Positions 37,292 through 64,000 of a stretch of DNA of 64,000 bases are shown here, in pieces; position 1 is the first letter of the stretch; the number at the start of each line of letters is the position of its first letter. The notes beneath the pieces were generated by a model. That model had not been told where the DNA came from. It made no database searches and saw only the letters and a list, made by a program, of their open reading frames with translations. The stretch covers positions 2,170,001-2,234,000 of the forward strand of contig CP080408.1 of assembly GCA_019448215.1 (NCBI GenBank), in the 5' to 3' direction. A program made the position numbers and the translations under genes. Source of the DNA: Thalassovita mediterranea (GTDB taxonomy: Bacteria; Pseudomonadota; Alphaproteobacteria; Caulobacterales; Hyphomonadaceae).

Positions 37292-39012
37292 GCGAACAGC
37301 CCATGCATGAACCAGAGCGGCGCGCCGCCACGCCCATCCTCATAGAGGCCTTGCCGGAACAGCCAGAAGCGGCGGCCCTCATCATCCTCGATCCGGTAAT
37401 AGTCCCGTGCCCGCGGCAGGTTGGAGACAGGTTCGCCCGGGTCGGCAGCTTCAAGTTCTGCCCGGATCTTTGCAATCAGCGCCGCATCCGCGCGCGGGTC
37501 GAGCTTGGGCTTCAGCCATTTGCGGTCAATGCCTTCAGGGCTGACAGAGGGCGGCGGCGGAGCCGTCCATGTCCACCACTCAGGCGCAAGCCGTTCTGGC
37601 CCGTCAGCCCGCGTTACGGCATGCGGCACGCGCCGCCAGATAAAGCGCAAGGGCGGCCCATCGGGCACTTCGGCGAGGACTTTTATCTCCTCAGGCGGGT
37701 CTATCAGGCGGATCGGTCTTGGCCCGTGGTCGGCAGGGGCGATGGCAGGGGCTGGCAGCTCACCATCAAAGCCTGCCTTGCGCTCTGCCTGCTCCGGCAA
37801 ATGGCTCTCATGCGCCTCAGTGACTTTCACAGTGCCTTCGCCGAGCTTGGCGGTAATCCTGTCTGCGAGGGCAGAGAGGAGGACAGGGTCTGTGTCGCTG
37901 GCGGCAAGGTCACCGGAAAGCGCGGGCGCGCTGATATCCATCGGCCCGGTCCGTCTTGCCTCCAGCATCAGAAGATCAATGCCAAAGCCGGGGTCGATCT
38001 GGTCCAGCTTTTCCGAAAAGAGCCGCAGGATATGCTTTGGCGTGCGCACGGGCCGGGCAAGCGTGACCGACACAGAGCTCACCTCACCATCGGCGCGAAA
38101 GGCGTGAAAGGCAAAGGCGCGCGCGCCCTGCCCAAGCCCGGTCAGCTTCACACAAAGCTCATCTGCCAGCTGTTCAAGCCCGCTCTGGACGCCTTCGGTT
38201 GCGAGCAATGGCTCCGGGCAGGGCAGGCGGGTGATATGCGAGGGGGCTTCGGTCAGCGGCGTGAGCGGTTCGCGGCGAAGGCCAAGCGCCTGATCGAGCC
38301 GCAGGAGGACCGCATCACCTGCCGCGCGTGACTGGAAACGCCGTCCCAGCGCCTTGCGATCAATTCCGTAAAGCTGGCCGATCCGGCGAAGGCCAAACCG
38401 CTTGAGCAGGGTCTCGGCCTCTTGCGACAGGCGCAGCGCACTGATGGGAAGCTCAGCAAGGCCTGCGGCTTCCTCGCCATCGGCAAGGATGTGTCCCGGC
38501 CAGTCGCGCGCGAGAGCGCTGGCCGCCCCCGGCGTACTGGCAAGGCCGAGCCGGTGGGGGATGGCATTCTTCTCAAGCAGGGCGGCCACAGTCTCCATCA
38601 TGGCTTCTTCTCCGCCATGAAGATGGTCGCAGCCCGTGGTCTCGATCATCAGCCCGTCATCGCCGTCAATGGCAACGATAGGGGAAAGGCGCACCATCCA
38701 GTCGCCAATCCGCTCCAGCGCAGCGCGGTCAGCCTCACGGTCGATATCCTCATGCAGGAGGTCCGGGCAGCGGGCGCGCGCATCGGTAAAGCCGAGGCCT
38801 GCCGATATGCCAAGCGCGCGCGCAGAGGCATTGGCCGCCGCAACGCGCAGGCCATGGCCGCCATCCTCGACGAGGACGAAGGGTTTGCGGGCCGGTTCAG
38901 CCGGTTTTTCGCCGGGGCGGGTCCTGGCTGAGGCCGATGTCGGCTGGCGCCGCGCGCGGCGCAGGCGCGTGAGCGGCCAGCCCGGAAACCACACGGAGAG
39001 ATAGCGTTTCAT
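37288..39012 (-). CDS. imuB: ImuB, catalytically dead Y-family polymerase-like protein
   Basis: A 574-residue Y-family-like protein. The N-terminus MKRYLSVWFPGWPLTRLRR is typical of ImuB, and the polymerase Asp of Pol IV in this strand is absent. The palm/finger part shows ANASARALGISAGLGFTDARARCPDL and IVAIDGDDGLMIETTGCDHL, and the helix-hairpin-helix region RLSQEAETLLKRFGLRRIGQL. The long C-terminal part ends in a region typical of ImuB (RDYYRIEDDEGRRFWLFRQG). ImuB bridges the beta clamp, ImuA and DnaE2. Start ATG 39012 gives the known ImuB N-terminus; the frame stays open upstream because it overlaps imuA by 116 bp in another frame. Confidence 0.92.
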   Translation of the reverse strand: MKRYLSVWFPGWPLTRLRRARRQPTSASARTRPGEKPAEPARKPFVLVEDGGHGLRVAAANASARALGISAGLGFTDARARCPDLLHEDIDREADRAALERIGDWMVRLSPIVAIDGDDGLMIETTGCDHLHGGEEAMMETVAALLEKNAIPHRLGLASTPGAASALARDWPGHILADGEEAAGLAELPISALRLSQEAETLLKRFGLRRIGQLYGIDRKALGRRFQSRAAGDAVLLRLDQALGLRREPLTPLTEAPSHITRLPCPEPLLATEGVQSGLEQLADELCVKLTGLGQGARAFAFHAFRADGEVSSVSVTLARPVRTPKHILRLFSEKLDQIDPGFGIDLLMLEARRTGPMDISAPALSGDLAASDTDPVLLSALADRITAKLGEGTVKVTEAHESHLPEQAERKAGFDGELPAPAIAPADHGPRPIRLIDPPEEIKVLAEVPDGPPLRFIWRRVPHAVTRADGPERLAPEWWTWTAPPPPSVSPEGIDRKWLKPKLDPRADAALIAKIRAELEAADPGEPVSNLPRARDYYRIEDDEGRRFWLFRQGLYEDGRGGAPLWFMHGLFA

Positions 39013-39640
39013 GGTCGAGCTCGATGTTGAACACGCGCCCCGCCATTTGCGGAGCTTGCCTGGACTTCTCCAGGACGGCCTGCCAGCGGCTGGCGCCCGG
39101 AGCGCGGGCATCGAAGGCATTGGGCCCCGATGGCCGCGAAGCGACCCGCCAACGGGCGGTCGCCGCGCTTGTCCCCTCCCGCCGCCAGGGCAATAGAAGG
39201 ATAAGCGGAATGCCATGCCGGCTGGCGGCGAGCGTCAGGCGGCGAGAGGCGGTAAAGTCCAGCGTCTCGATTTCAGCGATGACAAGCCCGACAGCGCCTG
39301 ACGAGATGGCTTCTTCGCTGGCCCAGAGGGCATCGCTCGCCTTCCGGGTCTGCACAGACAGAAGGCCGGCCGGACACTGGGTGAGGCTGGAAAGACCGGC
39401 ATGGAGAAGATCACCATGCTCACGCGCAAGGCCGAACTGACGAACCCAGAAGACCGCGCCTGCGGGCGGGCGCGCTGCAGCCAAGGCAAAGCCTGTCATG
39501 GCGGCCATGTCGCCATGACGCGCTTCGCAGATCTCATGCACGCCCTCACGGCCAAGGTTGAGCGGAAAGCTCTGGTCTGGCTTTCTGCGCGTATCACCAA
39601 GCCGGAAGACGCCGGGAATATCGAGGGCTCTGGACTTCAT
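38897..39640 (-). CDS. imuA: ImuA, RecA/SulA-like mutagenesis protein
   Basis: A 247-residue RecA-fold-like protein. The N-terminus has GVFRLGD, then REGVHEICEARHGDMAAMTGFALAAA, then WVRQFGLAREHGDLLHAGLSS and SLTQCPAGLLSVQTRKASDALWASEEAISSG, shown here in part, as in ImuA. It lacks a normal Walker A, as usual in ImuA. ImuA supports ImuB and DnaE2 in SOS mutagenesis. The LexA box lies directly upstream of its start. The C-terminal 38 codons overlap imuB; the overlap is longer than usual for coupled genes. Confidence 0.9.
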   Translation of the reverse strand: MKSRALDIPGVFRLGDTRRKPDQSFPLNLGREGVHEICEARHGDMAAMTGFALAAARPPAGAVFWVRQFGLAREHGDLLHAGLSSLTQCPAGLLSVQTRKASDALWASEEAISSGAVGLVIAEIETLDFTASRRLTLAASRHGIPLILLLPWRREGTSAATARWRVASRPSGPNAFDARAPGASRWQAVLEKSRQAPQMAGRVFNIELDHETLSLRVVSGLAAHAPAPRAAPADIGLSQDPPRRKTG

Positions 39641-39642
39641 AT

Positions 39643-39674
39643 GTTCTTATTTTGTTCTGGAGCAAAAGAGTCAA
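39643..39674 (-). promoter_or_regulatory. LexA box and promoter of imuA-imuB-dnaE2
   Basis: GTTC-TTATTTT-GTTC at 39643-39657 is a perfect alphaproteobacterial LexA box (GTTC-N7-GTTC). On the minus strand a -35 TTGACT (39674-39669), a 16-bp spacer and a -10 AAATAA (39652-39647) place the start of transcription about at the ATG (39640). The -10 lies inside the LexA box, so LexA would block polymerase directly. The transcript is probably leaderless. Confidence 0.9.
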
Positions 39675-62291: not shown

Positions 62292-62321
62292 TTTTACTGT
62301 CGATATGTTCCTGCTATGTTC
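62292..62321 (+). promoter_or_regulatory. LexA box and promoter of the radical SAM repair gene
   Basis: GTTC-CTGCTAT-GTTC at 62307-62321 is a perfect LexA box of the alphaproteobacterial form. A -35 TTTTAC (62292-62297), 17-bp spacer and -10 TATGTT (62315-62320) put transcription start close to the ATG at 62327, so the mRNA is probably leaderless and LexA would cover the -10. Confidence 0.85.
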
Positions 62322-62326
62322 CATCC

Positions 62327-63568
62327 ATGGGAAAGCGCACACTTATCGATCGTCTGGCCATTCTCGCGGATGCCGCAAAGTATGATGCCTCCTGCGCCTC
62401 ATCCGGGTCAGCGAAGAGGAACTCACTTTCTACCAATGGGATAGGTTCGACTGAGGGGATGGGCATTTGTCACGCTTATGCGCCTGACGGGCGATGCATC
62501 TCGCTGCTGAAGATCCTGATGACGAATTTCTGCATCTACGATTGCAAATATTGCATAAATCGGGTGTCCAGCAATGTGGAGCGGGCGCGCTTCAGCGTCG
62601 ACGAAATCGTCAAGCTGACCCTCGATTTCTACAAGCGCAATTATATCGAAGGCCTGTTTCTCTCTTCCGGCATCATCCGTTCCTCGAACTATACGATGGA
62701 CCAGATGGTCGAGGTCGCCCGCAAGCTGCGGGTGGAGCATAATTTCGGCGGCTACATCCACCTCAAATCCATCCCGGAAGCGGATCCGGCCCTGATTGAA
62801 CAGGCAGGCCTGCACGCTGACCGCCTCTCTATCAATATCGAATTGCCGCGTGAGGCCTCGCTCAAATCCTATGCGCCCGAGAAGTCCGGCGCGGTCATCC
62901 GCTCTGCCATGGCGAATGTCCGCCACGGCATCGAGTCGCGCCAGCCTGACCGCAAGGAGCGGGGCAAGGCGCGTCCGCCGCGCTTCATTCCGGGGGGACA
63001 ATCGACGCAGATGATCGTCGGCGCAGACCAGTCCTCCGATAAGGACATTATGACGACCAGCGCCTCGCTCTATTCCGGCTACAAGCTTCGCCGCGTCTAT
63101 TATTCGGCCTTCAGCCCGATACAGGACAGCTCCGGCGACCTGCCGCTCATCAAGCCGCCCCTGATGAGAGAGCACCGCCTATATCAGGCCGACTGGCTGA
63201 TGCGGTTTTATGGCTTCGAGAAGGATGAGATCTTCGAGGCCCGCCAGGACGGCATGCTCGACCTCGATCTGGACCCCAAACTCGCCTGGGCGCTGGAGCG
63301 GCGCGAGCGCTTTCCCGTCAATGTGAACCGCGCTACCCGCGAAGAGCTGCTGCGTGTGCCGGGCTTTGGCACCAAATCTGTGAACCGCATCCTCGCTGCG
63401 CGCCGCCACACAAACCTCCGCCTCGATCATATCGCGCGCATCGTCCGCTCGCTGAAGACCTGCCGCGACTTTATTGAGACGGTGGACTGGCACCCGTCCC
63501 GCGCGCTCGACCTTGTCACCTTGCGCGACAGGTTCGTGCCTCAGCCCCAGCAGCTCCAGCTTCTCTGA
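62327..63568 (+). CDS. Putative DNA modification/repair radical SAM protein
   Basis: A 413-residue radical SAM enzyme. The cluster motif CxxxCxxC is Cys69, Cys73, Cys76 in CIYDCKYCINR. More of the family: GMGICHAYAPDGRCISLLK, EGLFLSSGIIRS, and PGGQSTQMIVGADQ. A C-terminal helix-hairpin-helix (VNRATREELLRVPGFGTKS) suggests binding to DNA. It belongs to the SplB-like family always found before a DUF4130/UdgX-type gene; the exact reaction is unknown but DNA base repair is predicted. The ATG at 62327 lies 5 bp after the LexA box. The next gene shares its stop region (TGATG). Confidence 0.92.
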   Translation: MGKRTLIDRLAILADAAKYDASCASSGSAKRNSLSTNGIGSTEGMGICHAYAPDGRCISLLKILMTNFCIYDCKYCINRVSSNVERARFSVDEIVKLTLDFYKRNYIEGLFLSSGIIRSSNYTMDQMVEVARKLRVEHNFGGYIHLKSIPEADPALIEQAGLHADRLSINIELPREASLKSYAPEKSGAVIRSAMANVRHGIESRQPDRKERGKARPPRFIPGGQSTQMIVGADQSSDKDIMTTSASLYSGYKLRRVYYSAFSPIQDSSGDLPLIKPPLMREHRLYQADWLMRFYGFEKDEIFEARQDGMLDLDLDPKLAWALERRERFPVNVNRATREELLRVPGFGTKSVNRILAARRHTNLRLDHIARIVRSLKTCRDFIETVDWHPSRALDLVTLRDRFVPQPQQLQLL

Positions 63569-64000
63569 TGCACCAGATCAGCCTGTCTTCCGAAACGGAT
63601 TTCGATGGATGGCGCGATGCGGCCCGGCGTCTAGCGGGGCAGGGCGTGCCGCCAGCCGACATTCACTGGTCCGGCAGCACTGCGGGCGGAGACGATCTCT
63701 TTGCCGCCGTTGGCACGCCCGAACCTGCCGCGCCATCCCGGTCTACGCCGCGAGACGTCAAAGTCCCGAAAGCCTTCATCGATATGGCCAGGCGGGTCAT
63801 CTGCCACCGCGATCCGGCCCGTTTCGCCTGGCTCTACCAGCTATTGTGGGACCTGCAGCGCAACCGCGCCGCGCTCACCGATCCCCTCAATGATGCGGCC
63901 CGCTGGGTCAAAGGCGCCGACAAGCAGATCCGCCGCGACGTTCACAAGATGCATGCCTTCGTCCGCTTCCGGAAAGTCGGAGAGCGGGAGGGCCGCGAAG
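63568..64000 (+). CDS. DUF4130 / UdgX-family repair protein, N-terminal part
   Basis: The first 144 residues of the partner gene of the radical SAM protein; the rest lies beyond the right edge. DUF4130 features such as RVICHRDPARFAWLYQLLW, VKGADKQIRRDVHKMHAFVRF and RKVGEREGRE are seen. In full-length members this domain is followed by a UdgX-like uracil-DNA glycosylase domain that crosslinks to uracil in DNA. That part cannot be confirmed here. It begins in TGATG with the upstream stop, so it is coupled to the SOS-controlled radical SAM gene. Confidence 0.88.
   Translation, partial: MHQISLSSETDFDGWRDAARRLAGQGVPPADIHWSGSTAGGDDLFAAVGTPEPAAPSRSTPRDVKVPKAFIDMARRVICHRDPARFAWLYQLLWDLQRNRAALTDPLNDAARWVKGADKQIRRDVHKMHAFVRFRKVGEREGRE

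Follow-up and report, generated by a model that had tools for sequence, protein, structure and literature searches.

We identified a two-gene operon near the end of the 64,000-nucleotide stretch of Thalassovita mediterranea DNA that was analysed as a whole (the window). The operon encodes a radical SAM protein and a fusion of a DUF4130 domain with a UdgX-type uracil-DNA glycosylase domain. With high confidence, the site at 62307-62321 in front of it is a genuine LexA operator, and we regard the operon as being under direct LexA control. The operator, its conservation and turnover among relatives, the gene pair and the UdgX signature are all supported by sequence comparison, which also indicates that the radical SAM protein and DUF4130 form the obligate pair while UdgX is optional.

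The LexA operator and its turnover among relatives

The operator, GTTCCTGCTATGTTC, has the form GTTC-N7-GTTC and lies on the forward strand, beginning 15 bp downstream of coordinate 62292, where the region described by the initial annotation starts. It is separated by a gap of 5 bp from the ATG of the radical SAM gene at 62327, and the perfect LexA box that had been reported 5 bp before this gene was thus confirmed at these coordinates. A perfect LexA box is by itself weak evidence, since the bare pattern is no rarer than chance: it is present three times in the window against 1.55 expected, and at 66 sites in the genome against 69 for a reversed control pattern, which is background level. This frequency favours the alternative that the box is a chance match and that the operon lies outside LexA control in T. 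mediterranea. However, when genome sites were ranked by a weight matrix trained on orthologous promoters, the radical SAM box was fifth of the 66 sites, with 0.26% of random spacers scoring as high. In addition, a genome of the same genus (G664) retains the identical 15-mer amid different surrounding bases. Searches of the window for GAAC-N4-GTTC and for CTGT-N8-ACAG each gave one match, located away from the radical SAM gene.

The authenticity of the box is settled by the orthologues, which were surveyed in the way the initial annotation had proposed. The first sample consisted of 25 alphaproteobacterial orthologues, own genome included, from a draw of 385 genomes, and the 300 bp before the conserved start were searched, with windows from the same loci as controls. 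A perfect GTTC-N7-GTTC was found before 24 of the 25 orthologues, compared with one of 277 control windows. The second sample of 80 loci, nearly all from Alphaproteobacteria (three bear beta- or gammaproteobacterial names), overlaps the first in at least two genomes; here 75 loci carried a perfect box, compared with 22 of 1995 control windows. The five exceptions comprise two loci whose box has one mismatch and three that bear the labels Xanthomonas, Acidovorax and Luteibacter. We also found a perfect E. coli-type CTGT-N8-ACAG, unrelated in sequence to GTTC-N7-GTTC, at the same place in 17 of 20 orthologues against 2 of 661 control windows, these orthologues being classed as beta/gammaproteobacterial from their placement in the same phylum but another class and from their box type. 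Taken together, these three counts point to an operon that is very consistently LexA-controlled.

Because the samples are phylogenetically related, Fisher values for the box enrichment overstate its significance, but in the sequences compared the enrichment is a very large effect that extends across many genera and two unrelated operator types. G198, the only alphaproteobacterium in the first sample that has no box, and another box-less genome (G446) were both searched for a LexA DNA-binding domain, and none was detected in either. The claim of direct LexA control is therefore strongly supported: orthologues carry two unrelated types of box in the same position, and the box is absent from two genomes in which no LexA was detected. 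With the box conserved in place in most orthologues and substituted by the E. coli type in beta/gammaproteobacteria, a chance match is extremely improbable. Moreover, SOS control has survived a complete change of LexA operator sequence, which argues for selection on damage induction itself.

A different palindrome, GTCTCA-N5-TGAGAC, replaces the LexA box before the radical SAM gene at six loci (L159, L090, L179, L184, L185 and L186), which belong to the genomes G463, G657, G739 and Xanthomonas dyei G744. There are only two to three copies of it per genome, with none for the reversed control, and other copies precede uvrA and a DEAD/DEAH-box helicase gene. The lexA-recA locus of G463 was searched for this palindrome and none was found. 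It is possibly a separate DNA-repair operator.

Promoter layout and other SOS sites of the host

A probable -10 element, TATGTT, is located within the operator at 62315-62320 on the forward strand, preceded by TGC as in an extended -10 and followed by 6 nt before the ATG. In the family logo, built from 90 promoters whose box has the majority orientation, the LexA spacer contains a TATNNT hexamer, with a -35-like TTG 17 bp upstream of it. In these promoters the box most often ends 2 bp before the start codon (38/90), so that transcription would be expected to start on the A of the ATG. The family -10 inside the box, the -35-like TTG 17 bp upstream and the ATG at the expected start make leaderless transcription likely, and a leaderless transcript from the radical SAM promoter is a reasonable prediction. 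That the box overlies the -10, as the initial annotation had held, is in line with the family logo and the extended TGC-TATGTT; on the other side, the -35 of the window promoter is weak, and a sigma-70 scan of the forward strand at the radical SAM gene called no promoter. The asymmetric box of the window is flipped relative to most orthologues, but with its 5-bp gap the distance from hexamer to ATG is again 6 nt. Such flipped boxes were present in 9 of 99 orthologous promoters (L051, L052, L058, L072, L114, L118, L120, L025 and the window), and flipping apparently arose more than once in evolution.

The comparison site in the window is the LexA box of imuA, at 39643-39657 (forward strand), which precedes imuA at 38900-39640 on the reverse strand; the ImuA assignment is below its curated cut-off (36 vs 150 bits). 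The imuA promoter has a TTGACT, a gap of 2 bp and a box in the majority orientation, which relative to the gene is opposite to that of the radical SAM box. The similar geometry that had been noted for the two promoters thus holds for spacing and start position, with gaps of 2 and 5 bp, but not for the orientation of the box. Likewise, a common design of SOS promoters in this organism can be maintained for distance and start position and fails for box orientation.

T. mediterranea, which its relatives and kinship labels place probably in the Hyphomonadaceae, encodes its own LexA (PF01726 match at G000:C1:2767940), with a box upstream of the gene. In the regulon of this genome, sampled at 19 stretches around bare-pattern sites, further well-matching sites were found before recN, uvrA, dinB and imuA, as well as before genes for a YifB-family ATPase, a PA0069-family radical SAM protein and a GIY-YIG protein. 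By sequence match, these sites and the box upstream of lexA form a coherent SOS set. Candidate SOS genes were also noted at four loci of the same genome (L002, L003, L004 and L005), where LexA-type sites scoring high or fair lie near the starts of genes for two GIY-YIG-like proteins, a PA0069-family radical SAM protein and a glyoxalase-fold protein, the GIY-YIG assignment being Pfam-confirmed for L002 only. In addition, the radical SAM operon adjoins imuA-imuB-dnaE2 in about 11-12 of the 80 loci, two of which were checked by family search, and this adjacency agrees with a role of the operon in SOS.

The encoded proteins and the obligate pair

The radical SAM gene (62327-63568, forward strand) encodes a protein of 413 aa that matches TIGR03916 with 565 bits against a cut-off of 343.5. 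This family (rSAM_link_UDG), which we take to be the same as COG4277, is described by NCBIfam as a putative DNA modification/repair radical SAM protein. The radical SAM motif CxxxCxxC occupies residues 69-76, and its cysteines 69, 73 and 76 are present in 60/60 homologues. Three extra cysteines, 23, 48 and 57, are also invariant in 60/60. They lie in or beside stretches near the N-terminus where model confidence is low, which would fit a region that owes its order to a metal cluster. A weak match to a helix-hairpin-helix at the C-terminus suggests that this end of the protein binds DNA. In PDB fold matches the protein most resembles enzymes of the HydE, biotin synthase and viperin types. Membership of the spore photoproduct lyase (SPL) family was considered and is not supported by this comparison.

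The start of the second gene at 63568 overlaps the stop codon of the radical SAM gene, and its N-terminal part (63568-64000, forward strand) continues beyond the end of the window. The full gene in the genome (L001:4569-6011) encodes 480 aa, with DUF4130 (TIGR03915) at residues 8-243 and UdgX (TIGR03914) at 245-475; the uracil-DNA glycosylase (UDG) part falls outside the window. The UdgX domain scores 310 bits (cut-off 190) and carries GEQPG, KRRMH with the R-loop histidine, and HPSYLLR, and these motifs with the cross-linking histidine are present in 58/58 homologues. The UdgX assignment was correct, and the protein can now be described more precisely as a DUF4130-UdgX fusion that has the cross-linking histidine. 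Four of the 58 fused UdgX domains (L081, L092, L111 and L115) lack the iron-sulfur cysteines C300, C303 and C394 and keep the cross-linking histidine. In the fold search for DUF4130, UDG structures dominated the matches, and a DUF4130-only profile gave nothing credible in the PDB.

TIGR03916 and TIGR03915 each scored above cut-off in 25 of the same 385 genomes, 24 of them in common, the exceptions being due to a contig edge (G045) and a degraded radical SAM gene (G182). UdgX, by contrast, is fused in 17 of the 24 genomes that have both, separate in two, and in five no UdgX was above cut-off; it is also found without radical SAM-DUF4130 in about 15 genomes. In the second sample, UdgX was fused at 71 of the 80 loci. 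Operons without a fused UdgX, for example L022, L028, L029 and L032-L034, keep the LexA box, and SOS control thus goes with the radical SAM-DUF4130 core. The initial annotation had described a radical SAM/UdgX-type pair; UdgX is indeed present here, but it is with DUF4130 that the radical SAM protein is consistently paired. At the locus of G182 (L046), the radical SAM gene consists of the start and the C-terminal part only, whereas the DUF4130 gene is intact and the LexA box perfect, which probably reflects either decay of the operon or an artefact of sequencing.

Proposed function and comparison with known systems

From this arrangement we infer LexA occupancy, a leaderless start and a reaction on DNA as follows. 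LexA bound at 62307-62321 would cover the -10 and block transcription of the two-gene operon, and RecA-triggered cleavage of LexA would release the promoter. Transcription would begin at or beside the ATG, giving a leaderless mRNA, and the products would be a DNA-directed radical SAM enzyme and its obligate partner DUF4130, here fused to UdgX. Most likely, the radical SAM-DUF4130 core would act during SOS on some damage product within DNA, and uracil would be excised, and the resulting abasic site covalently capped, by the optional UdgX domain. We put this biochemical account forward tentatively, at somewhat under an even chance. It was claimed in the initial annotation that SOS control is direct evidence of a role in DNA damage, but such control shows when the genes are used and not what reaction they perform. 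Since relatives across Proteobacteria keep the SOS switch even where its sequence has changed, the genes almost certainly serve DNA repair.

Two other readings of the function were considered. UdgX may be the main actor, in which case the operon would excise uracil or cap abasic sites arising from error-prone SOS synthesis, and the radical SAM protein and DUF4130 would assist, for instance by freeing the DNA from its covalent adduct with UdgX. The frequent fusion of UdgX, the invariant cross-linking histidine and the SOS role suggested for a uracil-DNA glycosylase operon (PMC8565304) speak for this. We nevertheless consider it unlikely, given that 7 of 24 operons have no fused UdgX, that those checked in genomes with LexA keep the box, and that UdgX also occurs without the other two proteins. 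Alternatively, the radical SAM protein could be a direct-reversal enzyme for a UV pyrimidine lesion, similar to the spore photoproduct lyase SplB, which is SOS-regulated in several species (PMC8565304). A radical SAM core, SOS control and the presumed DNA-binding C-terminus would fit such an enzyme, and a published prediction makes DUF4130 a mutagenesis-related enzyme that goes together with SplB-like radical SAM proteins and with UDGs (PMC3765255). Yet the protein belongs to a separate NCBIfam family with extra invariant cysteines and an obligate DUF4130, there is no SPL among its 50 best PDB fold matches, and the PA0069-family radical SAM gene with a LexA-type box is a separate gene of the same genome, so that an SplB-like enzyme is quite improbable here. 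The most far-reaching reading, held with the same reserve as the biochemical account, is that radical SAM-DUF4130 is a previously uncharacterised SOS-induced machine that repairs DNA lesions by a radical chemistry of its own. The extra invariant cysteines would probably hold an auxiliary iron-sulfur cluster, and UdgX would be an optional addition to this machine, a module for capping abasic sites.

SOS control of a COG1573-COG4277 UDG operon is known from Bacteroidetes (PMC8565304) and was reported earlier in Verrucomicrobia and Alphaproteobacteria, as cited in that paper, and the regulation described here is thus not new in kind. The present analysis adds its quantified conservation, the turnover of the operator between proteobacterial classes, the layout of operator and promoter, and the division into core and optional parts. 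In the literature searched, we found no paper reporting the reaction of the radical SAM-DUF4130 operon. The distinction between an obligate core and an optional UdgX shows which proteins to begin with in purification and opens the substrate question to direct testing.

The operon shares with the COG4277-COG1573 'UDG base excision repair' operon (PMC8565304) its two genes, a protein of the uracil-DNA glycosylase family and SOS control, but its operator is the alphaproteobacterial GTTC-N7-GTTC and its UDG part is fused behind DUF4130. With SplB it has in common a radical SAM core and an association with DNA damage, while the helix-hairpin-helix, the three extra invariant cysteines, the obligate DUF4130 and the different NCBIfam family set it apart. 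The UdgX domain can be aligned over its full length with UdgX of Mycobacterium smegmatis, whose cross-linking properties have been described (PMC10359453), and shares with it GEQPG, the KRR-I/M-H loop with the cross-linking histidine, and HPSxLLR. Unlike the mycobacterial protein, it has Met for Ile in the loop and Tyr in motif B and is fused to DUF4130, and its gene shares an operon with that of a radical SAM protein.
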